DNA of 35,468 bases. It comes from Prevotella sp. (GTDB taxonomy: Bacteria; Bacteroidota; Bacteroidia; Bacteroidales; Bacteroidaceae). Location of the stretch: contig JALFCG010000131.1 in the NCBI GenBank assembly GCA_022771265.1, positions 1-35,468 on the forward strand, given 5' to 3'. Both the position numbers and the translations under genes were made by a program. Each line of letters starts with the position of its first letter. Position 1 is the first letter of the stretch. The notes beneath the pieces are model-generated. The model ran no database searches and had not been told where the DNA came from. It worked only from the letters and a program-made list of their open reading frames with translations. Positions 9,479 through 29,372 of the stretch are shown here, piece by piece.

Positions 9479-10849
9479 ATGAATAAAATTGAGAAGGAAG
9501 TACTAAAACTGCATGACCAACTCGGCGAGATGACGTATCGGCAGTTTTGGACGATAGCCACACAAACCACTGTTGTCCAGAGGTTTAAGAACCACAATAC
9601 CTGTACCCATTGCGGTCATCAATGGGAAAGTGATGACGAGGAAAAGCGATGTCCTATGTGCGGTTTCAAGGCAATCCCACATAAAAGCAACAGACGAATG
9701 AGGGTAAAGGTTGACAACGTGGAGTTCACTCTCCTTGTGCAGGCTTTCAAAGGTTGGCAGGTTCTCAGGTTGTTTGCTGTCCGCAATTTTGGGCGATGGT
9801 TCAACGGAATTTACAGGACATCGGTCTATGTCGATGAGGTTAGACAGCAGTGGCTGGGGGCTAATGGTGAGAATTGCATGTTGAGCAGGCGCCTCTCCGC
9901 TTATCCGTATTTCAACAGAAACCCATTCAAGACTGACAGTTCATTTATTGTCAGGAGAAATATGAGAAACTACGGTTATTATTCGTTTAACGTTGCGGAC
10001 ATCAATATACATAATGTGATAATTCAAAGTCTTGTGGACAGGTTCAGATATTGCGGAATCAATAAAAAGTGCGAATATTTCTCCCCTAACTTAGTGGAAG
10101 AATTTATCAGCGCGGTGATGGTTACCAGAATGTCCGAACCGATAATAAAAAGCGGAAATGCTGAGTTGCTGCTTGTCATCTATGAAAGGAGGTGTTTTGA
10201 GAATAATAAAACACAGGGTCAGATGGAAGCTGCCTTGAAAGTGGCGTTGCGTCACGGCTTCTTCAGAAAGAACATGACGCGTATGAAGTACATTGACTGG
10301 TGCGACCATATAAGGATGCTTATTGAGCTTGGTCTTGACATTCATTCGCCGCATTATGTCGCCCCGTCAGATTTTGACGCTCAGCACAGGCTGCTCTCCA
10401 ACAGGCTATCCAAGATTCGAGAAGCTGAAAGGAAAAAGAGGGAGCGTGAACAGGCTATTGCCGACGAGAAGAACTTCATCAAGATGAGGAAAAAATTCCT
10501 TGATCTTGTGATAATGGGCGAGAACATAACCATAATGCCTCTGCACAATATAGACGAGTTTTTCGAGGAGGGGGACAAGATGCACAACTGTGTCGGCTCA
10601 TACAGGAACAAATGGTCTTCGCTGATACTTTCGGCGAGGATCGGCAAAGACTGGTATAATCCTGAGCAGCGTGTGATGACGATCGAGGTTGACCTTTCGC
10701 AGTACAAGGTGGTACAGGCAAGGGGGTGCGGAAACCAGATGTCTGACTACAATGACGTTGTGCTGAAGTTGATGAACGACAACATGGGACTTATCAAAAA
10801 ATTAAACGAGAGCAAATGCGAGGAGAATATCAATGTCCGTATTGCATAA
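9479..10849 (+). CDS. pcfJ: PcfJ-like protein, 456 aa
   Basis: An N-terminal zinc ribbon has C42xxC45 and C58xxC61. A central helical region follows, with a basic coiled stretch near 311-326 (SKIREAERKKREREQA). The C-terminal PcfJ signature is GDKMHNCVGSYRNKWSSL (365-381), LILSARI, then VMTIEVDLSQYKVVQARG (399-415), which ends in the family's 'Q.RG..N' element. The invariant Cys (C371) in MHNC suggests catalysis or metal binding, although no activity is known to me. It partners the upstream PcfK-like protein. Length is normal for the family. Its last 34 nt overlap the next gene. Confidence 0.88.
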   Translation: MNKIEKEVLKLHDQLGEMTYRQFWTIATQTTVVQRFKNHNTCTHCGHQWESDDEEKRCPMCGFKAIPHKSNRRMRVKVDNVEFTLLVQAFKGWQVLRLFAVRNFGRWFNGIYRTSVYVDEVRQQWLGANGENCMLSRRLSAYPYFNRNPFKTDSSFIVRRNMRNYGYYSFNVADINIHNVIIQSLVDRFRYCGINKKCEYFSPNLVEEFISAVMVTRMSEPIIKSGNAELLLVIYERRCFENNKTQGQMEAALKVALRHGFFRKNMTRMKYIDWCDHIRMLIELGLDIHSPHYVAPSDFDAQHRLLSNRLSKIREAERKKREREQAIADEKNFIKMRKKFLDLVIMGENITIMPLHNIDEFFEEGDKMHNCVGSYRNKWSSLILSARIGKDWYNPEQRVMTIEVDLSQYKVVQARGCGNQMSDYNDVVLKLMNDNMGLIKKLNESKCEENINVRIA

Positions 10850-10953
10850 ACTATAACCCTTACACGGATGACTGCTGGCTGATATGCACGGACTGCAAGG
10901 ACAACGGAATTTTCTTCGGAGACAAGGAATGTACTCACTTTTTCAAAAAATAA
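10816..10953 (+). CDS. Cys-rich zinc-ribbon mini-protein, 45 aa
   Basis: Reads MRGEYQCPYC, then DDCWLICTDCKDNG and ECTHFFKK. Cysteines at 7, 10, 20, 24, 27 and 39, with a His at 41, give CxxC pairs typical of a zinc ribbon. It starts inside the 3' end of the pcfJ-like gene in a different frame, with a GAGCAA-ATG context, and ends 1 nt before the next ATG. The Cys spacing argues for a real gene. Probably a nucleic-acid or protein-binding adaptor. Confidence 0.7.
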   Translation: MRGEYQCPYCINYNPYTDDCWLICTDCKDNGIFFGDKECTHFFKK

Positions 10954-10954
10954 C

Positions 10955-11161
10955 ATGGTTTGGATAGTAATTGCATTTGTCATGGCGGCGATAATAATTG
11001 CTTTGCTCATGATACTTTACGGAGTAGTGACTGAAAAAACAGGGCCTGTACTTTGTGGCATAATCATCGTGGTCGCAGCCCTGTTCCTGTTTACAATCTA
11101 TGAGCCAAGCCCAAAAGCTCAGGCTCCTGTATTAATTTATCCGCATTATGAAAAGAATTGA
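10955..11161 (+). CDS. small membrane protein, 68 aa, two segments
   Basis: Two hydrophobic helices: residues 1-23 (MVWIVIAFVMAAIIIALLM) and about 29-49 (GPVLCGIIIVVAALFLFTI), linked by a short polar turn (VTEKTG). A polar tail, YEPSPKAQAPVLIYPHYEK, follows. It overlaps the next gene by 14 nt. The size and two-helix hairpin fit phage holins and other small inner-membrane proteins, but no lysin gene is nearby, so the role is open. Confidence 0.7.
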   Translation: MVWIVIAFVMAAIIIALLMILYGVVTEKTGPVLCGIIIVVAALFLFTIYEPSPKAQAPVLIYPHYEKN

Positions 11162-11501
11162 CACTTCAATATTCGTCCTGAGTGAAGATGAGCTTAAAAC
11201 ACTCGGATTGGAGAACGACTTGAGGTTCAAGGAGGAGAAGGTCGAGATATTTTTTAAGTACTTTGACGGCATAGCCGTGGAATGTGACGAGCATGGGAAT
11301 GTACCCGACAACCCGATAATACTCTGTTACACCCCGCTGAAAGTCGTCCATCTGTTTCGTGAATACGAGAAATACATAGCAAAGTGGAACCAAGTGAGAG
11401 GTGACGAGATAGAGCCCTTCCATGTATCGCAGTATTTCAGCAGGGCTATAAGGCTCGACAATCTGCTCCACGGTGACACTGATAATGGAATACAATTTTA
11501 A
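11148..11501 (+). CDS. unknown protein, 117 aa
   Basis: Starts MKRIDTSIFVLSEDELKTL, overlapping the membrane protein by 14 nt, so translation is probably coupled. Contains VEIFFKYFDGIAVECDEHG, and a helical VVHLFREYEKYIAKWNQVR. No membrane segment and no recognised motif. A normal gap and leader (TTAAACATTTGAATT) follow before the next gene. Confidence 0.7.
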   Translation: MKRIDTSIFVLSEDELKTLGLENDLRFKEEKVEIFFKYFDGIAVECDEHGNVPDNPIILCYTPLKVVHLFREYEKYIAKWNQVRGDEIEPFHVSQYFSRAIRLDNLLHGDTDNGIQF

Positions 11502-11517
11502 CTTAAACATTTGAATT

Positions 11518-12120
11518 ATGCCAAACTGGTGTATGACGGACCATGTGATAACGGGTCCGATTGACAGCCTCAGGACCATTTACAACAAGATGGTCAAGTT
11601 GAGAAGAATGAAAGCCCCACTTGTGGAGAACGGCTTTGGGAAGACATGGCTCGGATGTCTTGTGGTTGCTTTAGGCGGCGACTGGAAGAAAGTCTATTGT
11701 CGTGGCGCATGGGACAATGAAAAGCTGAATAAGGAGGATTGCACGTTGACATTCTGCACCGAGCATGCGTGGTGCCCTCCCCTGGATTTCCTCGATTTCC
11801 TCAAATCCAAGTTTCAGGTGAAGTCATATTTCATCTCTGAGGAGGAGCTGATGGGCGAGTACTACTGTAACGACATTAACGGACGGTATTTCCCTGAAAG
11901 ATATGTGTTAAGGAGCGGAGAGAACAACTTCTACTCATCATATCCAAACGAGGAGAAACTCATCGAGGCTATTAAGAAACACACCCCCTTCAAGGACATC
12001 GGTACCTTGCAGGATTTCTCCGCCGCCATTAAGGGGTATAATGAAGAGCATGACAACGATGAGCTTGACTGGCAGTACATCATATACACGCCGCTGGAAG
12101 ACAAGTACGTCGAGTATTAA
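11518..12120 (+). CDS. MPNWC-type protein (DUF1281/Api92-like N-terminus), 200 aa
   Basis: Begins MPNWCMTDHVITGPIDSL. The MPNWC start followed by a strand and 'G' is the hallmark of a ferredoxin-like domain seen in plasmid and phage proteins of the YubB/DUF1281/Api92 type. A second strand-rich part includes LTFCTEHAWCPPLDFLDFL, the W.PP element that also recurs in that family. Function of the family is unknown to me. It is the gene directly before the RT, 16 nt away, and is probably cotranscribed with it. Confidence 0.65.
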   Translation: MPNWCMTDHVITGPIDSLRTIYNKMVKLRRMKAPLVENGFGKTWLGCLVVALGGDWKKVYCRGAWDNEKLNKEDCTLTFCTEHAWCPPLDFLDFLKSKFQVKSYFISEEELMGEYYCNDINGRYFPERYVLRSGENNFYSSYPNEEKLIEAIKKHTPFKDIGTLQDFSAAIKGYNEEHDNDELDWQYIIYTPLEDKYVEY

Positions 12121-12136
12121 CTAAAAGACAAATTAT

Positions 12137-13402
12137 ATGAATGACGATAAGATTTTACAAATGTTCGCTGACTTCGGGAGATGGAGCGAGGCGATCAAAA
12201 AGGGTGTCGACAAAGACATCAGGATTGACCAGATGTACCAACTGGCAAAGGCTGACACGAGGGCCGCCATAATAAGCTCCATAGCTGACGGTGAGTACAG
12301 GATTTCCCCTCCTCACATAGCAAGGATACCCAAAGACAAAGGTGACTTCAGGGAGGTCTATGTGAACGAACCGATTGACAGGGTTGTGCTTAACATAGCC
12401 AACAAGCTGCTTTTTGAGCTTTGTCCTGAGATGGTTCACAAGAATTGCAAGTCATACCAGACAGGCATTGGCTGCGCTCAAGTGGTAAAGGAGGTGTCGA
12501 GAATGATTGAAGAGTCTGATGGAAACATAATAGGCTGGAAATCAGACCTTTCAAAATATTTCGATTCAGTTCCAATCAGATATGTGGACGAGGTGTTTGA
12601 TAATGTCGAGGTGAAGCACGGCAAATCCAAACTGATAGACGTGCTGCGCGACTATTATCACAACGACATCTACTTCGACATCGACGGCAACGTCCAGAGC
12701 AAGTACCAGTCAATGAAGCAGGGATGCAGCGTCGCCTCGTTTCTTGCTGACGTGGTCTTGTTCCACATAGATGAGAGACTCTCCGGTCTTGACGGACTTT
12801 ACATAAGATACAGCGACGACATGCTCTTTGTCGGAAAGGACTATCAGCTCGCAATGGACATACTTAAGGAAGAGCTTGCCAAGATGGAGATGAAGCTGAA
12901 CCCTAAGAAAATTGAGTTCCTTGACAAGAACCACTGGTTCAAGTTCCTCGGATTCGCCATTAAGGGAAACATGCTTTCGATGTCGCCCACAAGACTCAAG
13001 ATATTCCAGAAGGAGATCGAGAAAAGGACAATCAAGAAACGTGATAACACCCTGAAGAAAGCCGTAAACTCCGTGAACAGTTATCTCTACAAGGGAAACG
13101 GCGAGTTCAGTTGGGCGACGCAAGTGCTCAATGTGGTGAACGTAAAGAAGGACATCGACACAATGAACATGTTCGTGATGGACTGCCTCCGTGCGGTACA
13201 GACAGGCAAAAGAAAAGTCGGCGGTCTCGGTTATGTCAAAGAGCTGAAAGACCATTGTGTTGTGAGGGGCACCGGACGGAACGTCAAGGCTAACAGGCAG
13301 AAGACAGAAGCGAGGATAGAAGGTTATCTCTCGTTGGGCTGCATGCAGAAGGCAATGATGACGAGAAGGGGGTTTTATAACACGTTGGCGATGGGGCTTT
13401 AG
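12137..13402 (+). CDS. reverse transcriptase of an unassigned class, 421 aa
   Basis: Core RT motifs are in order: IPKDKGDFREVYVNEPIDRVV (64-84), KSYQTGIGCAQVV (105-117), motif A SDLSKYFDSV (136-145, catalytic D137), motif B QGCSVASFLADVV (195-207), motif C YIRYSDDMLFV (222-232, catalytic D227/D228), motif D near KMEMKLNPKKIEF and motif E FKFLGF (268-273). About 145 residues follow, forming a thumb-like basic helical region, and a C-terminal segment with GGLGYVKELKDHCVVRG and NVKANRQK. Motif B lacks the SQ of DGR RTs. No retron NAxxH or VTG motif, HNH or maturase domain is seen. The gene is complete and ends directly before the structured array, so array and RT are probably one transcript. I infer that the array RNA is its partner. 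Confidence 0.93.
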   Translation: MNDDKILQMFADFGRWSEAIKKGVDKDIRIDQMYQLAKADTRAAIISSIADGEYRISPPHIARIPKDKGDFREVYVNEPIDRVVLNIANKLLFELCPEMVHKNCKSYQTGIGCAQVVKEVSRMIEESDGNIIGWKSDLSKYFDSVPIRYVDEVFDNVEVKHGKSKLIDVLRDYYHNDIYFDIDGNVQSKYQSMKQGCSVASFLADVVLFHIDERLSGLDGLYIRYSDDMLFVGKDYQLAMDILKEELAKMEMKLNPKKIEFLDKNHWFKFLGFAIKGNMLSMSPTRLKIFQKEIEKRTIKKRDNTLKKAVNSVNSYLYKGNGEFSWATQVLNVVNVKKDIDTMNMFVMDCLRAVQTGKRKVGGLGYVKELKDHCVVRGTGRNVKANRQKTEARIEGYLSLGCMQKAMMTRRGFYNTLAMGL

Positions 13403-13427
13403 TGATTATCCTTCCACGGGGACTTGG

Positions 13428-13556
13428 TATATTGGCTGACAAAATTTACTTAGAAGGCGTTTACAGCTGGATGTGTAAATCTATCGGTTTATACATCCCG
13501 CTTCCAACGCCTTCACAGATCAGGCTATTAAAGAAACGTGGCGGTCAGCAAATATA
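13428..13556 (+). ncRNA. array unit 1
   Basis: Outer stem: TATATT-g-GCTGAC (13428-13440) with GTCAGC-a-AATATA (13544-13556). Apical hairpin 13453-13514: GAAGGCGTT pairs with AACGCCTTC, and inside it ATGTGTAAA pairs with TTTATACAT (one G-U) around a TCTATCGG loop. Motif: ATCAG-GCTAT-TAAAG at 13519-13533. Confidence 0.8.
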
Positions 13557-13583
13557 TTATGATTGGGTGGTCATTGCGGTTCG

Positions 13584-13712
13584 ATGCGGAAATATTCACC
13601 TTTCCTGGCTACAATCCGCTGGCGACCCAGTCATATTGACTGGGCAGCCAGCTCCTCACACAGGAACAGATCAGAAGAATAAAGAAACACCCTTTTTCTG
13701 CAAGTGCCGCAT
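13584..13712 (+). ncRNA. array unit 2
   Basis: Outer stem: ATGCGG (13584-13589) with CCGCAT (13707-13712). Apical hairpin 13605-13651: CTGGCT with AGCCAG and, beyond a 15-nt bulge, CCCAGTC-ATATT-GACTGGG. Motif: ATCAG-AAGAA-TAAAG at 13670-13684. An alternative hairpin CGCATA/TATGCG (13708-13728) would compete with the outer stem. Confidence 0.75.
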
Positions 13713-13734
13713 ATATCGTAGTTATGCGAAATCG

Positions 13735-13860
13735 GGTCTGCCCCAATATTCAATTCGCTGTTTAAACTTGGAGATCAATACGCTGTGCCCAGCGTATTAA
13801 TGAGCCCGCCAAAACAGCGAATATCAAAGCATTAAAGTGAATAACCGATTGGGGATGACC
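13735..13860 (+). ncRNA. array unit 3
   Basis: Outer stem: GGTC-tg-CCCCAAT (13735-13747) with ATTGGGG-at-GACC (13848-13860). Apical structure: ATTCGCTGTT (13753-13762) with AACAGCGAAT (13813-13822), enclosing AATACGCTG-TGCC-CAGCGTATT (13777-13798). Motif: ATCAA-AGCAT-TAAAG at 13823-13837, starting right after the hairpin. Confidence 0.82.
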
Positions 13861-13877
13861 TGATAAAAGACGTGAAC

Positions 13878-14012
13878 TGCCTGTACACAACCCAGGATTT
13901 AATCAACTGTACTGATACATCCTGAGGTCATCTATGACTATATGACCTCAGGACACATTACAGTTAATATCAAGAATATATAGTGACACGTCAACAGGGG
14001 AATGTGCGGGCA
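13878..14012 (+). ncRNA. array unit 4
   Basis: Outer stem: TGCCTG-ta-CAC (13878-13888) with GTG-CGGGCA (14004-14012). Apical structure: AACTGT (13905-13910) with ACAGTT (13960-13965), enclosing a 12-bp stem TCCTGAGGTCAT/ATGACCTCAGGA (13920-13953) with a 10-nt loop. Motif: ATCAA-GAATA-TATAG at 13969-13983. Confidence 0.8.
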
Positions 14013-14047
14013 ACTGACACAAACAACGTGAAGCACATCACTGTCAG

Positions 14048-14176
14048 CACGGTAGGGCGGCGTATTGAGCTATCCGGTTACACCTGGATACCTCATCTGA
14101 TATCTCGATGAGGTAATCCAGGTTCCACCGGATAACATCAGGAATATAAAGGATTGTGCCGTGCCGCCAAGCCGTG
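14048..14176 (+). ncRNA. array unit 5
   Basis: Outer stem: CACGG-tag-GGCGGC (14048-14061) with GCCGCC-aag-CCGTG (14163-14176). Apical structure in three steps: TATCCGG/CCGGATA (14071-14134), ACCTGGAT/ATCCAGGT (14082-14123) and CCTCAT/ATGAGG (14091-14113). Motif: ATCAG-GAATA-TAAAG at 14137-14151. Confidence 0.83.
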
Positions 14177-14188
14177 TTTCTAAAATGA

Positions 14189-14318
14189 CCTCTTGGGCTG
14201 CCTATAATTAGAGGTACTTCTTACACGACGTGTCTCGATCTGCCCACAGATCAAGAACACGTCGTGTAAGAAGTCCATCATCAGATAAGTAAAGTCATGA
14301 ACCATGGCAGCAAAGAGG
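14189..14318 (+). ncRNA. array unit 6
   Basis: Outer stem: CCTCT-tgg-GCTGCC (14189-14202) with GGCAGC-aa-AGAGG (14306-14318). The apical hairpin has an 18-bp perfect stem (14216-14233 with 14257-14274) capped by GATCTG-CCCA-CAGATC. Motif: ATCAG-ATAAG-TAAAG at 14280-14294. This is the strongest hairpin of the array. Confidence 0.84.
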
Positions 14319-14323
14319 AATGG

Positions 14324-14437
14324 GGCAGCGCAGCCTTATGCTCCATGAGGGAGGCATTAATATATGCACATCTCAATCTGGGTTGCCCCCAGATTCGAGA
14401 TGGCTATAATCGGAAATATAAAGAAATGCGCCGTGCC
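14324..14437 (+). ncRNA. array unit 7
   Basis: Outer stem: GGCA-GCGCA (14324-14332) with TGCGC-cg-TGCC (14427-14437). Apical hairpin 14369-14402: CATCTC/GAGATG and AATCTGGG/CCCAGATT around TTGCC. Motif: ATCGG-AAATA-TAAAG at 14409-14423. The 36 nt between the outer 5' strand and the hairpin are longer than in other units and could form a further small hairpin. Confidence 0.78.
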
Positions 14438-14466
14438 TTATGTGGAACATTTTAAACATTGATATT

Positions 14467-14934
14467 ATGGCAATTTTTGAAGAAACAATCAAAAGGGTCG
14501 AGATGGGAGCGAAGTTCTATGTGAACTTTAAGGAACGCTCCCTTAGAGTCAACGGCAAGTATGTCATAAAGGACGGAAAGCCGCTGAATGACAAGGAGTT
14601 TGGATTTATCACTGACGGAGAGCCGATGGAGTATATCTATCATGCTTACAAACTTTACAAACATTCAGTGCCTTCAAGACGCTCCAATGGTCACAGGAGG
14701 TCATATTTCAAGGCTCTCGCCGAGAAAGACCTTTCAGATGACGACATGATGTACGGGGAAGGAAGAGAAATGGCGAGATGCAGACTGGAGCTTGCCATAC
14801 TGATAATGGCTTGTACCGGTCAGCTCGTATGGAACCCTGAGTGGGGCAACGTGTTCTATCAGGACGACGACGACAAGGATCTTGTGGTAATGCGTGAATG
14901 GGTCGAGCCGCAACCTGAAAGCAATGCGGCATAA
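14467..14934 (+). CDS. unknown protein, 155 aa
   Basis: The start at 14467 (MAIFEETIKRVEMGAKFYV) fits TTGATATT-ATG. An in-frame ATG at 14440 would add nine residues and begin 3 nt beyond the last array stem, so it is less likely. The middle is basic (HSVPSRRSNGHRRSYFKAL), then EMARCRLELAILIMACTG and WNPEWGNVFYQDDDDKD. No family recognised. As the first gene after the array it may belong to the RT system or simply be the next operon gene. Confidence 0.7.
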   Translation: MAIFEETIKRVEMGAKFYVNFKERSLRVNGKYVIKDGKPLNDKEFGFITDGEPMEYIYHAYKLYKHSVPSRRSNGHRRSYFKALAEKDLSDDDMMYGEGREMARCRLELAILIMACTGQLVWNPEWGNVFYQDDDDKDLVVMREWVEPQPESNAA

Positions 14935-14976
14935 CAAGAGACAATTAACATCATTAACAATTAAATATTTACAATT

Positions 14977-16050
14977 ATGGAGAAAAGAAACATTCTTATT
15001 CAAGGCGATTTTAGTATTACGGAACTTAAGCAGAAGGACACTCGCAAGAAGGCTATGACCGCTGAAGAGAAGATTGAAGCCCTCAAGAAGGCTGGTGTGG
15101 ACACCGACGGCTTCTTCTCGATGAAGGGCGCGAATGGGGGCGATGCCATCGCGAGACTTGTTAACGGCAAGTTGGAGATGCTTGATGACGACGACCCGAT
15201 ATTGGCTGCTATCCGTGAAGATGGTGAGATACCCGACAGCAGGCTCTACCGCAGATGGGTTCTCGCCCAAATCATGCACATGATTGTGTGGATGAAGGGG
15301 AATCCGAAGATGTCTTTTGTGGACTGTATGGCTTTTCGTGGGGGTTATGAATACCAGTGGAAAGTGCTGGAGAACGAGTTCCACGCCCAGTACAAAATGG
15401 AGGCAAACAAGGACGGGGAGAACCTGAAGATGCGCAACATTTGGTACAACAAGACGTTGGCTCTGAGCATGTTCGACGGTTACATGAGCGAACTTAAGAA
15501 ACAGGTGGAAAACTATGTTCCGAGAAAATACAAGGGCAAGCCTTACGTCAAGATTCACGGCAAAAACTATTTTCTCGACAATATCGACGCTGAGCTGTAC
15601 AAGCCGATGGCTGCATTGAGAAACGTTATCGTAAACGCAAAAACAGCACGCGTTCTCTGGTTGGCTGTGAAGCGTGTCAATGCCGAAAAGGTGAGGCTGA
15701 GCAGAAAAGCCAAGATGAGCAATGAGTTCATTGACGCATACAAGGGCTGCGGTTCGTACTACGCCATGAGGAACCTTCTGATGTTCCACGGAATGAAAAT
15801 GGCGGTTAACGGAATAGAGCTTTCCGGCAACTTAGCCTTGGAATATCTCGACTGCAAGACTGTAGCTTTTTCCGCTTCCCATGAGGGCTGGAGGTTGCTT
15901 GGTATGCTGAAGGAGCTTATGGAGCACAACAACTTCGACATCAGCAAGAAATTGGCGGAGTGGAGTGCCGAGAAAGTCCGCAGACAAATCATAGCAAAGG
16001 CGAATAAAAACCTCCAGGCTTGTACGAACAAGAATAAGCGTAACCGATAA
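14977..16050 (+). CDS. basic helical protein, 357 aa, unknown
   Basis: Starts MEKRNILIQGDFSITELKQ after TTAAATATTTACAATT-ATG. Largely helical with many Lys/Arg, notably AVKRVNAEKVRLSRKAKMS and the tail KVRRQIIAKANKNLQ...NKNKRNR. Contains SRLYRRWVLAQIMHMIVWM and FRGGYEYQWKVLENEFHAQ. I do not recognise a catalytic motif. The charge suggests nucleic-acid binding. It lies between the array and its degenerate copy at 16.1 kb, so a link to the RT system is possible. Confidence 0.75.
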   Translation: MEKRNILIQGDFSITELKQKDTRKKAMTAEEKIEALKKAGVDTDGFFSMKGANGGDAIARLVNGKLEMLDDDDPILAAIREDGEIPDSRLYRRWVLAQIMHMIVWMKGNPKMSFVDCMAFRGGYEYQWKVLENEFHAQYKMEANKDGENLKMRNIWYNKTLALSMFDGYMSELKKQVENYVPRKYKGKPYVKIHGKNYFLDNIDAELYKPMAALRNVIVNAKTARVLWLAVKRVNAEKVRLSRKAKMSNEFIDAYKGCGSYYAMRNLLMFHGMKMAVNGIELSGNLALEYLDCKTVAFSASHEGWRLLGMLKELMEHNNFDISKKLAEWSAEKVRRQIIAKANKNLQACTNKNKRNR

Positions 16051-16079
16051 ACGACAATAACAGATAAATCCGTAACGGC

Positions 16080-16175
16080 CCGGTGAAGAATTTAATACGA
16101 GGCTACGTGAAGCTGTCGAGGGCTACAGCTCATATTGTCTCCTATATCATAAACATACAGGGAAAGCCGCACCGG
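16080..16175 (+). ncRNA. degenerate eighth copy of the array unit
   Basis: In the 268-nt gap after the 357-aa gene, CCGGTG (16080-16085) pairs with CACCGG (16170-16175). Inside are a hairpin AGCTGT-CGAGGGCT-ACAGCT (16111-16130) and ATCAT-AAACA-TACAG (16146-16160), which matches the array motif at the right spacing with two mismatches. Order and topology are those of the seven units, although the hairpin is shorter. The rest of the gap holds the palindrome GGCTTAAGCC (16217-16226) and no gene. Confidence 0.5.
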
Positions 16176-16318
16176 AATTACGAAAAACTGTCAGTCAGTG
16201 GCGGTTATGCTTGTTTGGCTTAAGCCTATCATGATTAAGTTGTCATTTTGGGCAGCAGGCTTCAAATCATTTGGACAAATGAAAGTCGCACATAAGGTCT
16301 GGTAAAATATTTACATTT

Positions 16319-16489
16319 ATGGACAAGGATTTAGTTTTTCTCGGTATGATGATGAAGTCATACAAGCACACGTTAGCCAATGACGTGAAGCAAGGATTGA
16401 TATCCAAGGCATCATATTATGCCAGAATCAAGAAAGCCGAGGACAATATTGAAAAAATAAGGGGAGCAGTATGGATGAAACATACCTGA
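16319..16489 (+). CDS. helical mini-protein, 56 aa
   Basis: Starts after AATATTTACATTT-ATG and reads MDKDLVFLGMMMKSYKHTL, then ASYYARIKKAEDNIEKIRG, ending VWMKHT at TGA. Amphipathic and basic. Overlaps the next gene by 19 nt. The leader context supports it. Function unknown. Confidence 0.6.
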   Translation: MDKDLVFLGMMMKSYKHTLANDVKQGLISKASYYARIKKAEDNIEKIRGAVWMKHT

Positions 16490-16668
16490 CAAAACTTAGG
16501 TTGTTGCTTGATCTTCTCGATGATTCAATCGGGATGATGAAGCAGATTGAGTCAAGCCCTTTTGTCCCAAACAGGCTAAGGCTTAACGTCTTTGACGCAA
16601 GGAACCTGATAGAGGTAAGTCGTGAGGTGCTCGGAAAATATGCGCTTATCGACTCAGTATTAACTTAA
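16471..16668 (+). CDS. helical protein, 65 aa, unknown
   Basis: Reads MDETYLTKLRLLLDLLDDS, then MMKQIESSPFVPNRLRLNV and ends YALIDSVLT. Mostly helical. It is preceded by GGGGAGCAGT, a weak purine-rich ribosome-binding site inside the upstream gene, implying coupling. No recognised family. Confidence 0.65.
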   Translation: MDETYLTKLRLLLDLLDDSIGMMKQIESSPFVPNRLRLNVFDARNLIEVSREVLGKYALIDSVLT

Positions 16669-16679
16669 ATGCAATAATT

Positions 16680-16808
16680 ATGTGGAATGAACAGAAACAG
16701 ACACGCTATGTCGCCGAAAGGGTGTGTAGCTGTAGTGGTAAACGCCTCGTGTTCTTCAATGGACATGGTCATCAAGGAGTCAGGGACTTCGGGGAAAAAG
16801 CGGCATGA
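16680..16808 (+). CDS. mini-protein, 42 aa
   Basis: Begins at ATG after GCAATAATT and reads MWNEQKQTRYVAERVCSCSG, later FNGHGHQGVRDFGEKAA. A CSC and a GHGHQG stretch could bind metal. It overlaps the next gene by ATGA, which supports a real gene despite its size. Confidence 0.55.
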   Translation: MWNEQKQTRYVAERVCSCSGKRLVFFNGHGHQGVRDFGEKAA

Positions 16809-17140
16809 ACAACAAGAGAAGGAAAGACCTTGAGATTGTCGCCAACCACATCAGAAGCCTGATGGAGGGCAGTAAAAAGCCCGAGAAGAAAGAGTTTGAA
16901 GGGATAGCCGAAAAACTTACGGACATTGCTGATGAGGAGGACGATGCCACGATGAACATGCCAGAGAACCTGTTTGCCACAGACAGGTACCAGGACATGC
17001 TCGACAACATGTGTGACATTATGGATGCCGCGACAAAGGTGAACGATGTTGTCGCTGGGTACGAGATGCTTAAATGGACCGGATGCAAGGCAAAGCTCAA
17101 TGCCGCTATCAAGTCCATCTATCTTGCCATCAACCGTTGA
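16805..17140 (+). CDS. acidic helical protein, 111 aa
   Basis: Starts MNNKRRKDLEIVANHIRSL in an ATGA overlap. The body is helical and acidic in the middle (GIAEKLTDIADEEDDATM), with a C-terminal helix KAKLNAAIKSIYLAINR. No family recognised. It is the last gene before a strong hairpin, so it may end a transcription unit. Confidence 0.7.
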   Translation: MNNKRRKDLEIVANHIRSLMEGSKKPEKKEFEGIAEKLTDIADEEDDATMNMPENLFATDRYQDMLDNMCDIMDAATKVNDVVAGYEMLKWTGCKAKLNAAIKSIYLAINR

Positions 17141-17171
17141 TGGGATTTTGTTTCAAATTTTTATTTAACTT

Positions 17172-17197
17172 GGGCGGCATTGGAAACGGTGCCGCCC
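17172..17197 (+). terminator. GC-rich hairpin after the 111-aa gene
   Basis: GGGCGGCA (17172-17179) pairs with TGCCGCCC (17190-17197) across a 10-nt loop. It lies 32 nt after the stop of the previous gene. No T-run follows (TCAAATTC), so it could terminate weakly, protect an mRNA end or act as an attenuator. A closely similar GGGCGGC hairpin at 28316 does carry a T-run. Confidence 0.5.
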
Positions 17198-17221
17198 TCA
17201 AATTCACTAAGGAATGGAAGT

Positions 17222-17551
17222 ATGAAAACAGCAAAGGAAAAACATCTTGATGCGCTCAACAGGCTTTATGTCATCAAATGCGACAAGGAGCATTTCTTCA
17301 GGGTTGCGAGAAGGCTTGAGTGCAAGCTGGAAAGGGAGGCTGAAAGATATTGCAGCAGACCTAACAGTAGAGAACCTAATTTTGACCATGCACTGAAGAG
17401 GCTGCTCCCATTGGTCAAGTACAAGCGGAAGTTCGAGGCGGATTTCTACGGAAATTCAGACCCAAGAGGGTATGCCCTTAAAATAAACAATAACACCCCA
17501 GGATTATGCAAGGACTGGGGCGGAGATGGAATAATTGCGCCAATTTTCTAA
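17222..17551 (+). CDS. basic protein, 109 aa, unknown
   Basis: The start at 17222 (MKTAKEKHLDALNRLYVIK) has GGAATGGAAGT ahead of it. An upstream in-frame start at 17180 lies inside the hairpin and is rejected. Basic helices (FRVARRLECKLEREAERY, ALKRLLPLVKYKRKFEAD) suggest nucleic-acid or ribosome contact. The end, GLCKDWGGDGIIAPIF, is glycine-rich. No family recognised. Confidence 0.65.
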   Translation: MKTAKEKHLDALNRLYVIKCDKEHFFRVARRLECKLEREAERYCSRPNSREPNFDHALKRLLPLVKYKRKFEADFYGNSDPRGYALKINNNTPGLCKDWGGDGIIAPIF

Positions 17552-17562
17552 ATGATAGAATT

Positions 17563-17778
17563 ATGAAGATAGAGATCGAAAAAATCAGTTTGTTTCACGA
17601 TTTTGTGAATAACGAGAGGGAAATAAAAGTCAATCTCAGTACAGGTTCCGAGGTGACCATTATCCCATGTCACGAAAGTTATGAGCAGTATGGCGGTACA
17701 CTTGCCGAATTGCAGGTTACTTGTTCTGTAGCGGAAAAATACAACTCATGGTTGCATGAGGACGATGACATTGAATAG
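17563..17778 (+). CDS. small acidic protein, 71 aa
   Basis: Starts after TGATAGAATT-ATG and reads MKIEIEKISLFHDFVNNER, then EIKVNLSTGSEVTIIPCHE. Predicted as a small strand-rich fold ending in an acidic tail HEDDDIE. The next gene starts 6 nt later. Function unknown. Confidence 0.65.
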   Translation: MKIEIEKISLFHDFVNNEREIKVNLSTGSEVTIIPCHESYEQYGGTLAELQVTCSVAEKYNSWLHEDDDIE

Positions 17779-17784
17779 GTGAAT

Positions 17785-18129
17785 ATGGAAAGATTGAAAT
17801 CTATAAACGAGAAAAACATCGCTATACTTGAAGAGAATGGTTTCAAGTATTGTGGTACGGCTTGGGACAAGTTCCCATTGAGCGCTGAGCTTGAGACTTA
17901 CACTGATGGCGGTGAAGATATGATAATTTCTCTTGAAGCCGTCACCAGGGAGAAATTTGAGGAATATATCGAGAATTTCGACGTTAACGAGAATGTTTTG
18001 ATGTGGTGGAAAGAAGGACTTGAAACGGCACGCAAGATGCGAGTCCCCTTTAACAACATCAAGGAACATTATGAGGACTATGAGAAATTTCTCGAAAGAC
18101 TTAGGAACATTGCAAAACTTTTAAATTAA
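17785..18129 (+). CDS. acidic helical protein, 114 aa
   Basis: Starts at ATG 17785 (MERLKSINEKNIAILEENG); a GTG at 17779 directly after the previous stop is an alternative. Contains FKYCGTAWDKFPLSAELET and a C-terminal helix HYEDYEKFLERLRNIAKLL. No family recognised. Confidence 0.65.
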   Translation: MERLKSINEKNIAILEENGFKYCGTAWDKFPLSAELETYTDGGEDMIISLEAVTREKFEEYIENFDVNENVLMWWKEGLETARKMRVPFNNIKEHYEDYEKFLERLRNIAKLLN

Positions 18130-25868: not shown

Positions 25869-28277
25869 ATGAAAACAATGCTAAGGGAACTTAACCTGAA
25901 ACCGCACAATGCCGCGGCTTACAGGAAAGTCATGGATTATTATGAAGCTGGAAATGACAGGGCTGCCATAGTCCATGCGACAGGTACCGGCAAAAGCTAT
26001 ATAATAGCCGCCGTTACGAGGCATTTCAGCAAGGTTATGATAATAGCGCCGAACAATTTTGTCCTTAACGAGACAAGAAAGATATGCGGAGACAACGTCA
26101 CCTTCAGGACATATTCGTCAATAATGTGCGATAAAAGCCTTCCTGAGGATTACGACTTGATAGTGCTTGACGAGTTTCACAGGGCTGGGGCTGAAAAATG
26201 GGGAGAGGGCATTGAAAGGCTAATATCAGCCAACCCTTTCGCAAAACTGCTCGGGACATCAGCTACAGCCATAAGGTATCTTGACAATGAGAGGAATATG
26301 GCTGACGAGCTTTTTGACGGGAACGTTGTCAGCCATATATCACTGAGAACGGCTCTCGACACGGGAATACTCCCCACCCCAACCTATGTCGCGTCCCTTT
26401 ACTCCATAGACCAGGATATACAGAGGAGAAGGGAGATGATAAACAAGAAAAAGTTCAAGAGCGGTTCTGAAAAAGAGGGGCTTATGAGAAGACTTGACGG
26501 CATAGCCTGTAACTGGAACAATGCCCAGGGCGTGCCTTATATTCTTAAAAAATATCTCAGAAAAGACATAAGGAGAATTATTGTGTTCTGCTCGAAAATA
26601 GAACGCATAAAGGAAATCAAGGATTCTCTCAAATCGTGGTTTGCGGAAGCCGGGTTCTCCAAAGTCCACTTTTACAACATCAACTACACTGAAAGCCGTG
26701 TGGAGGAGAATATGGAGAAATTCCAGGACGACAATTTTGAAGGCATTAACATTGCCCTTTCAGTAAACATGCTGAATGAGGGTGTGCATATACCCCGTGT
26801 GGACGCGGTGATAATGCTTCGCTCAACCATCAGCAGGATAATAATAGAGCAACAGGCAGGAAGGTGCCTCACGACCAACAACAAGGGTATAACACCAGTG
26901 ATATTTGACCTTGTGAATAATATGGATCTCATACGCTACGCCGACAACAATTGGACTGACGGTAACCGGAACCTTATTGAGGACGGCTCTGAGGAACCCG
27001 GTAACGGGCTTCCCTTCAAGATTTACGACGAGTGCCGTGACCTGAGAATGTTCCTCACCCAGATAGACCTCAGCATAACAAACGACGATATCTGGTATAA
27101 CGTGTATCTTCCGATGAACGAGAGGTTCTTCTCTATGCACGGACATCTTCCTGGGCCCAAAGAAAACAAAAAGGTTTATCTGTTTAATAGGGAACAGAGG
27201 AACAAGACGCTACAAAAGAGATACCCCCACAGGATAAAATGGCTTGTCGAGCATGGCTTTAACGCCGAGTTCAAGGAGATAAAGACTGTCAGTGAAAAGC
27301 TCGACATGTTGACGGAGGGTCTTGAAAGATACGGTAGCGTTGTCGTCATGAGAAAAAATGACCCGAAACTCATGAATATGTGGGACAATATGAAATATAC
27401 CTATAACCACGGCAAGAAAAACAAGAAGTTCGACTTCAACGAGGAAGAGAGAGCTCGTTTTTCCGAATTGCTTGAAAAATACTGCCCTGACAAATGGGAG
27501 GCGATTTTTATTCCAATTAAGAACATTTTGGAAAGAATTGGCAAGGACGGCCTATCGAAAAATCAGAGGTCTTGGATAGCTTCGTATTTAAGAACAGGAA
27601 AAGACCCTGAAAGATTGGAAAGGCTGAAGGGACTTGGAGTATGCAATTTCATCAGAAAATTGTCATCAAGTCATGACGAGGAATTAAAAGAGTTCATAAC
27701 AAAAAATGGCAGTCTGCCGACTCCCTCAGAAAAGGCCGTTTATGGTACAATGATGAGGTTCAAGAGAGAGTCAGCGCAAAAGAAAAGCCCTGAACTGTTC
27801 AGCTTGCTTCTCGAACACGGCTTCAATCCTGACAGAAACTACAAGAGAACCGTGGAGACTTTGGAGGAAAGATGCGAGAGAATAAAGAGGACCTGCGCAG
27901 AAAAGCAGATGTTCATAGGCTCCCTGCCAGGCAATGACTATAGTTGGTACCAGAGGATTTACAAGAAAAATCCGGATAATCCTGCGGTACTGGACATGCG
28001 TTCCGTGGTGGAGAAATACAAAAATGCCGCCATGTCTGAAATATCCACCGCGGAACTGTATGAAGAGCGTGTGGCAAGGATAAGGGGAATCGGCGAGCAG
28101 GGCTATACCATAAACTCCAAGAGCTTGCTGTTCAGATGGTGGAGCATGAGGCTCCGTAATGAAAAGATGAGGAAAAGACCTGACCGTCAGAAAATAGCGG
28201 AACTTGAAGGTCTTGCGAAATACATGTCCACCAATGACAAGAAGGGTTGTCAGATGAAGTTATGGACATCGGATTAG
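25869..28277 (+). CDS. superfamily 2 helicase with HA-like C-terminal repeats, 802 aa
   Basis: The N-terminal DEAD/DEAH-type core has Walker A ATGTGKS (37-43), motif Ia-like IIAPNNFVLNETR, motif II DEFH (101-104), motif III TSAT (130-133), and a second RecA domain with IIVFCSKIERIKEI, ALSVNMLNEGVHIPRVDAV and motif VI-like IEQQAGRC. Residues 400-802 contain repeated helical modules (LFNREQRNKTLQKRYPHRI, LSKNQRSWIASYLRTGKDP, GSLPTPSEKAVYGTMMRF, GSLPGNDYSWYQRIYKK) resembling helicase-associated HA domains, which probably bind DNA. Likely roles are phage DNA replication, repair or transcription remodelling. It sits between terminators and has its own 120-nt leader, which contains a possible Bacteroides-type promoter (TATATGTTTTTG near 25765) and a small hairpin CGGCGATATTGCCG. 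Confidence 0.9.
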   Translation: MKTMLRELNLKPHNAAAYRKVMDYYEAGNDRAAIVHATGTGKSYIIAAVTRHFSKVMIIAPNNFVLNETRKICGDNVTFRTYSSIMCDKSLPEDYDLIVLDEFHRAGAEKWGEGIERLISANPFAKLLGTSATAIRYLDNERNMADELFDGNVVSHISLRTALDTGILPTPTYVASLYSIDQDIQRRREMINKKKFKSGSEKEGLMRRLDGIACNWNNAQGVPYILKKYLRKDIRRIIVFCSKIERIKEIKDSLKSWFAEAGFSKVHFYNINYTESRVEENMEKFQDDNFEGINIALSVNMLNEGVHIPRVDAVIMLRSTISRIIIEQQAGRCLTTNNKGITPVIFDLVNNMDLIRYADNNWTDGNRNLIEDGSEEPGNGLPFKIYDECRDLRMFLTQIDLSITNDDIWYNVYLPMNERFFSMHGHLPGPKENKKVYLFNREQRNKTLQKRYPHRIKWLVEHGFNAEFKEIKTVSEKLDMLTEGLERYGSVVVMRKNDPKLMNMWDNMKYTYNHGKKNKKFDFNEEERARFSELLEKYCPDKWEAIFIPIKNILERIGKDGLSKNQRSWIASYLRTGKDPERLERLKGLGVCNFIRKLSSSHDEELKEFITKNGSLPTPSEKAVYGTMMRFKRESAQKKSPELFSLLLEHGFNPDRNYKRTVETLEERCERIKRTCAEKQMFIGSLPGNDYSWYQRIYKKNPDNPAVLDMRSVVEKYKNAAMSEISTAELYEERVARIRGIGEQGYTINSKSLLFRWWSMRLRNEKMRKRPDRQKIAELEGLAKYMSTNDKKGCQMKLWTSD

Positions 28278-28382: not shown

Positions 28383-29372
28383 ATGGAAGAAAACCAGATG
28401 GCAGTAAATCTGCCAACAGTAGCGAACGAGAACACTGTTTCAGTTTTAAATTCAAAAGAGGCAACGGAAACTTGTGTCAAATACAACAAGACGCAAGGTG
28501 TTTCCGGGTCATCAGAAAAAACGTCGGACCATGAGGGCTGCGAGGGCATTGGGCCGAAAATGAAGCGATGCTACAAATGCGGAAGAGTGCTGCCTTTAAC
28601 CGAATTTTCCAAAGACAATTCAAAAAGCGACGGTCATAGGGGTATATGCAGGGAATGCGTGCATGCTTACAATGAGGAGTTAAGAAAAAAGAAAGCTATG
28701 GCTTTCTCTCAGATGAAACAGGAGAACGAGGCTATCAGCAACATGGCGGCAGAAACAGGTGTTGGGGTAGTGGACAAGGAAACTGAAAGGAAATCCATGC
28801 CATTCGGTTTTCCAAATAAGATAAACCGCATAATGCGAATCGCCAACGGTCCGGAAACCAAGGTTTGCAAGAAATGCGGCAAGAAGAAGAGCATCGTGGA
28901 ATTTTCGTGCGACAAGGGTTCACTTGACGGCTTCTCCTCAAAGTGCAAGCAATGTGCTTCGGAAATGAGGAAGGAGTACCGTCATAAGAAATCTGAGGAG
29001 CAGAGAGTCAAGAAATTAAATGATGAGACCACGATGAGCAGGCAGAAGCAGACTATCATTGAACAATACAAGACCATCGAGGATTTGCGTGCCCAAATTT
29101 ATACCCTTCAAAGTGAAATAAAAAGCAAGACACCGGAAATCAACCATTTTCCTGTTGGAGCTGAAGTGTTCTGCTTTAGGGGTAACGAGATTTCCAAGCT
29201 GGAGGTTGATGACGTGGACATTACGGTGAGCATGAAAAAACACTCCCCTTCCATCACTTACTATTTTAAGGGAGGAAGGACAGAGAGGGTGCCAGGTGAA
29301 GCGAAGCTCTACGCTACCATGAATGAAGTCACAATGGAGCTTGCAAGGATATCAGGCTATCAATTCAAATAA
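28383..29372 (+). CDS. double zinc-ribbon protein, 329 aa
   Basis: A polar N-terminus (1-58) is followed by two related zinc modules. The first is RCYKCGRVLPLTEFSKDNS ending ICREC (C63, C66, C89, C92). The second is VCKKCGKKKSIVEFSCDKG ending CKQC (C162, C165, C188, C191). Each has the 'C..CG....L.EF.KD....DG....C..C' pattern common in phage and restriction-linked HNH-type proteins, but no HNH catalytic core is visible. Then comes a coiled coil (about 205-250) and a strand-rich C-terminal domain from INHFPVGAEVFCFRGNE. A DNA- or RNA-binding factor that dimerises through the coiled coil is the likely role. Confidence 0.8.
   Translation: MEENQMAVNLPTVANENTVSVLNSKEATETCVKYNKTQGVSGSSEKTSDHEGCEGIGPKMKRCYKCGRVLPLTEFSKDNSKSDGHRGICRECVHAYNEELRKKKAMAFSQMKQENEAISNMAAETGVGVVDKETERKSMPFGFPNKINRIMRIANGPETKVCKKCGKKKSIVEFSCDKGSLDGFSSKCKQCASEMRKEYRHKKSEEQRVKKLNDETTMSRQKQTIIEQYKTIEDLRAQIYTLQSEIKSKTPEINHFPVGAEVFCFRGNEISKLEVDDVDITVSMKKHSPSITYYFKGGRTERVPGEAKLYATMNEVTMELARISGYQFK

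Follow-up and report, generated by a model that had tools for sequence, protein, structure and literature searches.

The window analysed here is a 35,468-nucleotide stretch of a Prevotella sp. genome (contig JALFCG010000131.1 of assembly GCA_022771265.1), one contig of a 191-contig, 2.98-Mb genome assembly. It carries a reverse transcriptase (RT) gene followed by an array of structured units and by genes for two accessory proteins, RTas346 and RTas337. Comparison with related loci has shown that this RT-RTas346-RTas337 triad and the array are conserved together. The protein family is already known as PADLOC group UG27 with RTas346 and RTas337; the organisation of the array appears to be new. 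An earlier reading of the window from its letters alone (the sequence-only reading) had proposed a new RT-array system: the array does belong with the RT, but the RT family was not new. We propose that the array consists of seven, probably eight, predicted pseudoknotted RNA units, and that the RT would bind each of them and copy the apical hairpin of that unit into a single-stranded DNA (ssDNA) of its own, a reading to which we give slightly less than an even chance. Binding and copying are predicted from the topology of the units, from the PADLOC resemblance of the RT to Drt9 and UG17/DRT10, and from a mixed contrast between G-U and A-C changes.

Association of the array with UG27 loci

The RT open reading frame (ORF) matches Pfam RVT_1 (E 4.3e-21) and, over residues 3-418, the PADLOC model RT_UG27 (E 1.7e-214). 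Residues Y225, S226, D227 and D228, together with D137, are invariant among 18 aligned homologues, indicating an intact catalytic YxDD. Below UG27, the PADLOC ranking for this protein places UG26, Drt9 and a general RT model highest, followed by UG17.

Seven copies of a 15-nt motif, spaced 129-168 nt apart, lie 3' of the RT gene (Table 1). Every copy is preceded by the 3' arm of an apical hairpin and followed by that of an outer stem (7/7 units), just as the sequence-only reading had described. When the two halves of the array were compared with dinucleotide shuffles, their folding z-scores were -7.67 and -8.68, and none of 100 shuffles folded as well in either half. We agree that this kilobase holds no credible gene: a 132-aa ORF overlapping units 1-2 (13402-13800, GTG start) matches no PHROG even at a threshold of E 1, and the equivalent gap in the cultured phage BS-TP1 is annotated as geneless. 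An Rfam scan of the window returned no family reaching its gathering score.

Homologue scans with an 18-sequence alignment gave 80 viral loci (the best 80 of 99) and 72 genome loci, of which 38 have distant RTs. We compared 116 loci whose RT is at least 45% identical to the window RT, including phage records, L001 and the window itself, with a few overlaps or near copies (e.g. L001, L052). The pattern ATC-N7..9-TA.AG occurred 387 times in the 84 kb between RT and RTas346 (4.60 per kb), as against 16 times on the opposite strand of that stretch (0.19 per kb), 19 times in 144 kb of RT genes (0.13 per kb), 8 times in 68 kb drawn from the 600 nt upstream of the RT (0.12 per kb) and 42 times in 243 kb farther away (0.17 per kb). 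It was also found between RTas346 and RTas337 (1.23 per kb) and in the 600 nt past RTas337 (2.13 per kb).

A weight matrix trained on these units, for which chance matches at the cut-off number about 0.02 per kb, detected 584 units in 103 of the 116 loci at a median spacing of 172 nt. These comprise 454 distinct units in 217 sequence clusters, and a locus typically holds 4-8 units, with a maximum of 12. Among the 103 loci with a complete, ordered set of RT, RTas346 and RTas337, at least one unit was found in 100, at least two in 92 and at least four in 81, and the array is kept beside homologous RTs, as the sequence-only reading implied. The 13 loci excluded from this count were cut off or did not show this gene order, and 9 of them lack units. 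Where the RT is at least 57% identical to that of the window, at least two units were present in 80 of 82 loci (median 7).

The array does not always lie directly 3' of the RT, the position described in the sequence-only reading. Elsewhere units also occur behind RTas346, behind RTas337 or just upstream of the RT. RTas346 is fused to the RT C terminus in 12 of 81 distinct RTas346 ORFs (a single ORF of 529-567 aa; loci in Table 1); units lie behind RTas346 and/or RTas337 in 11 of these loci, the twelfth (L044) ending before any unit, and L038, L042 and L047 have strong unit matches upstream of the RT as well. In L035, RTas346 and RTas337 lie upstream of the RT and there are three unit matches; in L108, RTas337 lies upstream of the RT. 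The window itself probably has a diverged eighth unit behind RTas337, where relatives often keep at least one; this candidate is below the weight-matrix cut-off, and the z-score of its own fold is only -1.45.

Carriers include viral contigs from IMG/VR, genomes of Bacteroides, Phocaeicola, Prevotella, Alistipes and Muribaculaceae, and one Bacilli genome bin. Because that bin (L110, CANRDN010000016.1) has a UG27 RT, 49% identical and with one unit-like match, the system may extend beyond Bacteroidales. Phage BS-TP1 (PQ571274.1) encodes a UG27 RT annotated as 'tail protein' (L155:11995-13257), and the unannotated 1.35-kb gap behind it holds eight unit matches. Among 395 genomes from the window's class, UG27 was found at 1e-60 in the source genome alone, and 149 relatives' genomes contained one further RT, 63% identical, with unit matches adjoining it.

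Structure of the units

From 5' to 3', a unit consists of a small hairpin (P1) whose loop contains the strand PkA, the 5' arm of the outer stem (P2), a TTYAR sequence, the apical hairpin (P3), the motif, two or three bases, the strand PkB and the 3' arm of P2. The motif is an unpaired ATCRRA-N4-TAAAG, and the commonest PkB is TGTGC. PkA in the P1 loop pairs with PkB just 3' of the motif, forming a pseudoknot whose sequence differs among units while the pairing is kept; this element was missed in the sequence-only reading. PkA mostly alternates purine and pyrimidine (RYRYR) and varies mainly by transitions (313 units), with window units 1 and 2 deviating. The median distance from TTYAR to the end of the motif is 105 nt (152 cluster representatives with TTYAR, out of 217).

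With the motif and pseudoknot bases constrained to be unpaired, all seven window units folded according to one plan. A pseudoknot match of 5-6 bp was found in units 1-5 and 7 (e.g. CCACG/CGTGG, GGGTG/CACCC and GACGTG/CACGTC); in unit 5 a different stretch scores higher, and we chose the stretch within the hairpin loop. Because about half of swapped pairs also match, such a match in one unit is weak evidence, and the case rests on the whole set.

We therefore compared native with swapped partners, using one unit per sequence cluster. Native pairing exceeded swapped pairing with a z-score of 39.0 for the apical hairpin, 21.4 for the outer stem and 13.8 for the pseudoknot (217 clusters), and of 21.3 for the arms of P1 (171 clusters). 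The controls gave -0.6 for the motif against the upstream part, -0.7 for a control stretch and 4.7 for the pseudoknot read in parallel. A strict pseudoknot (five pairs after an A) was present in 240 of the 454 distinct units, compared with 26-35 when PkB was swapped between units, while any five-pair match in the searched stretch was present in 372 native units and in 221-250 swapped ones.

We also examined 'unit 2' in 19 orthologues; the structure came from folding this alignment, with the pseudoknot added by hand. Across its 53 pairs, 91.3% of cells were standard pairs, as against 36-43% when the partners were slid by 1-3 columns. Both sides were altered in 26 of the 53 pairs (16.0 in shuffles), and the covariation score was 0.304 compared with 0.158 in shuffles, none of 500 being as high. 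Further pair types were no more numerous than in shuffles (204 of 500), and within these 19 orthologues four pseudoknot pairs out of five are invariant. The compensatory changes support the unit helices, and covariation across homologues is strong, in keeping with the structured units first proposed from the window alone.

A covariance model built from the same 19 sequences, with the window excluded, recovered unit 5 (14020-14185; E 8.7e-13) and unit 7 (14315-14458; E 7.6e-9) of the window, the other five units not scoring below E 0.01. Applied to 86 of the 116 loci, it gave 173 matches at E≤1, including reverse-strand matches of palindromic hairpins. Beside the 38 distant-RT loci nothing fell below E 1, the one weak match having an E of 1.2. 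Among 11 loci from relatives only the UG27 locus L164 matched, the 10 further distant RTs having nothing below E 1, and the same was true of 19 loci picked with the UG26 model (not verified as UG26); the flanks in both of these sets were short, about 3.5 kb per locus in all.

Table 1. Coordinates of the UG27 locus in the window, and loci with fused RT and RTas346
Feature	Position	Strand	Details
UG27 reverse transcriptase	12137..13402	+	421 aa; YSDD = residues 225-228; Pfam, PADLOC and homologue alignment
Unit 1	13414..13559	+	PkA 13414-13418; P2 13425-13433/13551-13559 and 13435-13440/13544-13549; P3 13453-13481/13486-13514; motif 13519-13533; PkB 13537-13541
Unit 2	13565..13711	+	PkA 13565-13569; P2 13575-13580/13706-13711 and 13585-13592/13695-13702; P3 13618-13633/13637-13652; motif 13670-13684; PkB 13688-13692
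Unit 3	13716..13864	+	P1 13716-13719/13726-13729, loop containing PkA 13721-13725; P2 13731-13738/13857-13864 and 13741-13747/13848-13854; P3 13753-13785/13790-13822; motif 13823-13837; PkB 13841-13845
Unit 4	13869..14012	+	PkA 13869-13874; P2 13878-13887/14003-14012 and 13891-13893/13997-13999; P3 13905-13931/13942-13965; motif 13969-13983; PkB 13987-13992
Unit 5	14028..14177	+	P1 14028-14031/14038-14041, loop containing PkA 14033-14037; P2 14047-14053/14171-14177 and 14056-14061/14163-14168; P3 14071-14097/14107-14134; motif 14137-14151; PkB 14155-14159
Unit 6	14189..14318	+	P2 14189-14194/14313-14318 and 14197-14201/14307-14311; P3 14216-14242/14247-14274, lower part an uninterrupted 18-bp helix; motif 14280-14294; no pseudoknot found
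Unit 7	14320..14446	+	P1 14320-14326/14333-14339, loop containing PkA 14328-14332; P2 14342-14346/14442-14446 and 14351-14357/14433-14439; P3 14361-14382/14388-14408; motif 14409-14423; PkB 14427-14431
RTas346	14440..14934	+	164 aa as listed; PADLOC PDLC03808, E 1.4e-51
RTas337	14977..16050	+	357 aa; PADLOC PDLC03807, E 3.2e-96; model pLDDT 88.7
Diverged eighth unit (probable)	16071..16182	+	P2 16071-16075/16178-16182 and 16080-16085/16170-16175; TTTAAT at 16091; motif 16146-16160
RT-RTas346 fusion loci			L037, L038, L039, L042, L044, L047, L048, L050, L051, L081, L098, L101

Unit payloads and a possible mechanism

In six groups of orthologous units, identity was 0.57-0.75 in the apical arms and 0.63-0.90 at the apical tip, compared with 0.47-0.60 at third codon positions of the RTs of the same groups. 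Between units within one array, apical identity was 0.44 (727 pairs, 40 loci), against 0.43 for shuffled sequence. Because the apical part is conserved among orthologues and unrelated within an array, each unit seems, to judge from these identities, to keep its own payload inside a common frame. The units had been called several related RNAs, which is apt for the frame but not for the apical hairpins, which are as dissimilar as shuffled sequence.

We propose that the constant frame (5' hairpin, kissing pseudoknot, outer stem and motif) would be the handle of the RT, with the pseudoknot and outer stem bringing the unpaired motif to the active site. DNA synthesis would begin at the motif or close to it, proceed through the hairpin toward the 5' end of the RNA and stop near the conserved TTYAR on the far side of the hairpin, after about 105 nt. 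Each operon would yield several hairpin DNAs that differ from one another, in the manner of a naturally multiplexed retron or DRT2. Since many carriers are phages, we speculate that these DNAs could act as decoys or toxic ligands for DNA-binding proteins of the host or of a rival phage. In its fullest form the proposal is of a multiplex library, in which one phage RT would serve a CRISPR-like array of up to a dozen RNAs with a shared pseudoknotted handle and different, individually conserved hairpin payloads, each written as its own hairpin DNA to give several DNA effectors against several targets at once; we hold this extended version more tentatively.

The placement of the motif suggests another possibility, namely that the RT binds the units and uses the short unpaired motif as its only template. 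The apical hairpin would then be a boundary, as in telomerase RNA and DRT10, and the DNA made would be short or repetitive; having many units would serve dosage or the assembly of a large ribonucleoprotein. No pairing is evident between the motif and the upstream part (z -0.6), a stable stem-loop and a pseudoknot flank the motif, and the bases just 3' of it, outside the search pattern, are also conserved. However, A-B-A' repeats across the loop are not enriched, and a mere boundary leaves unexplained why unit-specific apical sequence persists between phages. We regard a motif-only template as unlikely.

In a helix under selection as RNA, G-U is better tolerated than A-C, and we counted these two kinds of change by region. 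A first pooled count (14 clusters) had no clear asymmetry (G-U:A-C 206:173 on the given strand and 191:227 on the other); a contrast appears once the count is split. Considering only pairs found when either strand is folded, and single departures from the main pair in 24 clusters, the frame gave 75:37 and the apical hairpin 67:77, with a column-pair odds ratio of 2.29 (p 0.001) and a cluster-bootstrap range of 0.21-1.24 for the difference between the log ratios. An alignment-free count of one-by-one mismatches, with one unit per cluster, gave 32:10 in the outer stem and 29:23 in the apical hairpin. The outer stem and the 5' hairpin prefer G-U. We take the contrast as a mixed hint that the apical hairpin may be selected as DNA, that is, after copying; alignment noise could also produce it.

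These counts bear on two readings in which nothing is copied. The units could be RNA effectors or regulators that never serve as templates for reverse transcription; they might be decoys, antisense RNAs or sites at which proteins bind the operon mRNA, and the RT would have some other task. Decoys would be consistent with hairpins that are strong and whose sequence is specific to each unit and conserved, and the count over all 454 distinct units has G-U in excess in the apical hairpins (88:51). But these hairpins lack the frame's preference with one unit per cluster or in aligned changes, and the units accompany UG27 RTs whatever place in the operon the units occupy, with none found beside the other RTs tested. 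Nor was an antisense target found: the array has no second copy in its own genome, and a search with the L084 array in six genomes returned related arrays and, apart from these, nothing but matches of 33-37 bits. RNA effectors strike us as distinctly unlikely.

Alternatively, the hairpins could act in the genome as DNA, for example as cruciforms, a replication or packaging signal or recombination sites. Long inverted repeats and apical hairpins without a clear G-U preference in two of the three counts would fit such a role. The motif, however, is strand-specific (4.60 vs 0.19 per kb), the outer stem and 5' hairpin favour G-U, and a long-range pseudoknot is an RNA-type feature. We judge a genomic DNA element very improbable.

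Several observations weigh against the copying of each apical hairpin by the UG27 RT. Units become few or undetectable in many loci once RT identity falls below about 57%. Among the complete loci, L068, L073 and L077 (RT 47-50% identical) are unitless and eight others have a single unit, some of which may be chance matches, while L108, in which the gene order is changed, has a full flank and no units. Unit 6 of the window has no detectable pseudoknot, and no priming residue or start site of synthesis was found. The RT lacks the signatures of retrons: NAxxH occurs in 0 and VTG in 6 of the 120 listed homologues, and neither is in the window RT. The apical identities among orthologues are upper estimates, because the clusters were made by similarity. 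As to the base changes, the count over all distinct units, in which large clusters weigh more, shows apical G-U preferred; the cells counted lack phylogenetic independence, and errors of alignment would shift the apical ratio toward 1:1.

Genomic context and comparison with known systems

Judging from aligned homologues, RTas346 probably starts at Met10 (14467) and not at the listed position, which overlaps the 3' arm of unit 7 and heads a stretch (model residues 1-8) with pLDDT below 50; with this start, unit 7 would fall outside the gene. Structure comparison of RTas346 and RTas337 gave no informative fold match. A CPxCG zinc-ribbon-like motif opens many RTas337 homologues and is absent from the window RTas337. 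The UG27 locus of the window probably sits inside a phage. No phage structural genes were recognised among those window ORFs that were scanned, which are a part of the total. Elsewhere the window encodes a PcfJ-like protein (9479-10849; PF14284, E 2.1e-29), a DNA helicase (25869-28277) and a protein with PHROG matches to endonuclease VII, HNH and Lar-like proteins (28383-29372).

The PADLOC models for RT, RTas346 and RTas337 all match the window; that library consists of protein models, and Rfam gave no match for the array. A literature search, with most subscription papers outside its scope, returned no paper pairing the name UG27 with reverse transcriptase and nothing on arrays of non-coding RNAs (ncRNAs) accompanying RTs. 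A 2022 survey of UG/Abi RTs reportedly may discuss UG27 in gut viruses. Within the searchable literature, the organisation into array, frame and payload appears to be undescribed.

Sequence features speak against some characterised systems. A group II intron is not indicated by TIGR04416 (94.4 bits against a cut-off of 300) or by any Rfam match at gathering score. A diversity-generating retroelement would have template and variable near-repeats of about 100 nt, and no direct repeat in 10000-18000 exceeds 36 nt, the one of that length being the unit motif. Retron RTs are marked by NAxxH and VTG, and each retron has one ncRNA. The outer stem around a long hairpin, which would be copied to hairpin DNA, does resemble a retron msr-msd; the NCBIfam model for retron St85 scored the window RT at 44.1 with a cut-off of 235.

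DRT9 is group UG28, and after UG27 it is the best-scoring PADLOC group with a characterised mechanism (UG26 scores higher). The DRT9 ncRNA combines scaffold and template (PMC12483538), and its template is U-rich; the UG27 loop is not of this type, its logo from 325 fifteen-nt motifs being ATCRRA-N4-TAAAG. UG17 is DRT10, an RT that copies its own ncRNA (PMC12632851). As in DRT10 and telomerase RNA, a stable stem-loop lies directly 5' of an unpaired conserved loop in UG27 units, a likeness of topology in which the loop would be only a putative template, whereas UG27 differs in having an array, RTas346 and RTas337. Repeats of 3, 4 or 5 nt, as in a DRT10-type A-B-A' template loop, were no commoner than with swapped halves. 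General family scans of the window proteins turned up no SLATT protein, which accompanies DRT10, though no search was aimed at it.

DRT2 is group UG2. Its template is variable and about 120 nt long; a stem lies 5' of it and a pseudoknot 3', an arrangement shared with telomerase RNA, and short conserved motifs flank the template (PMC12039810). UG27 loci share with DRT2 an RT adjoined by a pseudoknotted ncRNA, a predicted one in the case of UG27, and in topology the pseudoknot likewise lies 3' of the variable part. They differ in that DRT2 there has one ncRNA per RT and UG27 loci typically 4-8 and up to 12 units, in that the variable part of UG27 is a long hairpin, and in the two accessory proteins. 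DRT2-style endless ORFs in presumed concatemers were not in excess: the cDNA strand was open in 14-35 of the 152 units in which TTYAR marks the boundary, compared with 18-36 expected (six boundary choices). Since both the A-B-A' and the endless-ORF signatures are absent, one non-repetitive hairpin cDNA per unit would be the simplest remaining reading.

If correct, this reading would extend DRT biology from bacterial defence to phages and supply an existing scaffold by which one cell could make several defined ssDNAs. With handle, payload and motif mapped, a cultured phage, BS-TP1, carrying an eight-unit array, and the RT active site lending itself to an evident control, the role of a UG group is now directly testable. 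The RT-ncRNA systems compared here, from cited work or general knowledge, have one RNA per enzyme, whereas UG27 has an array of distinct units kept through wide divergence.

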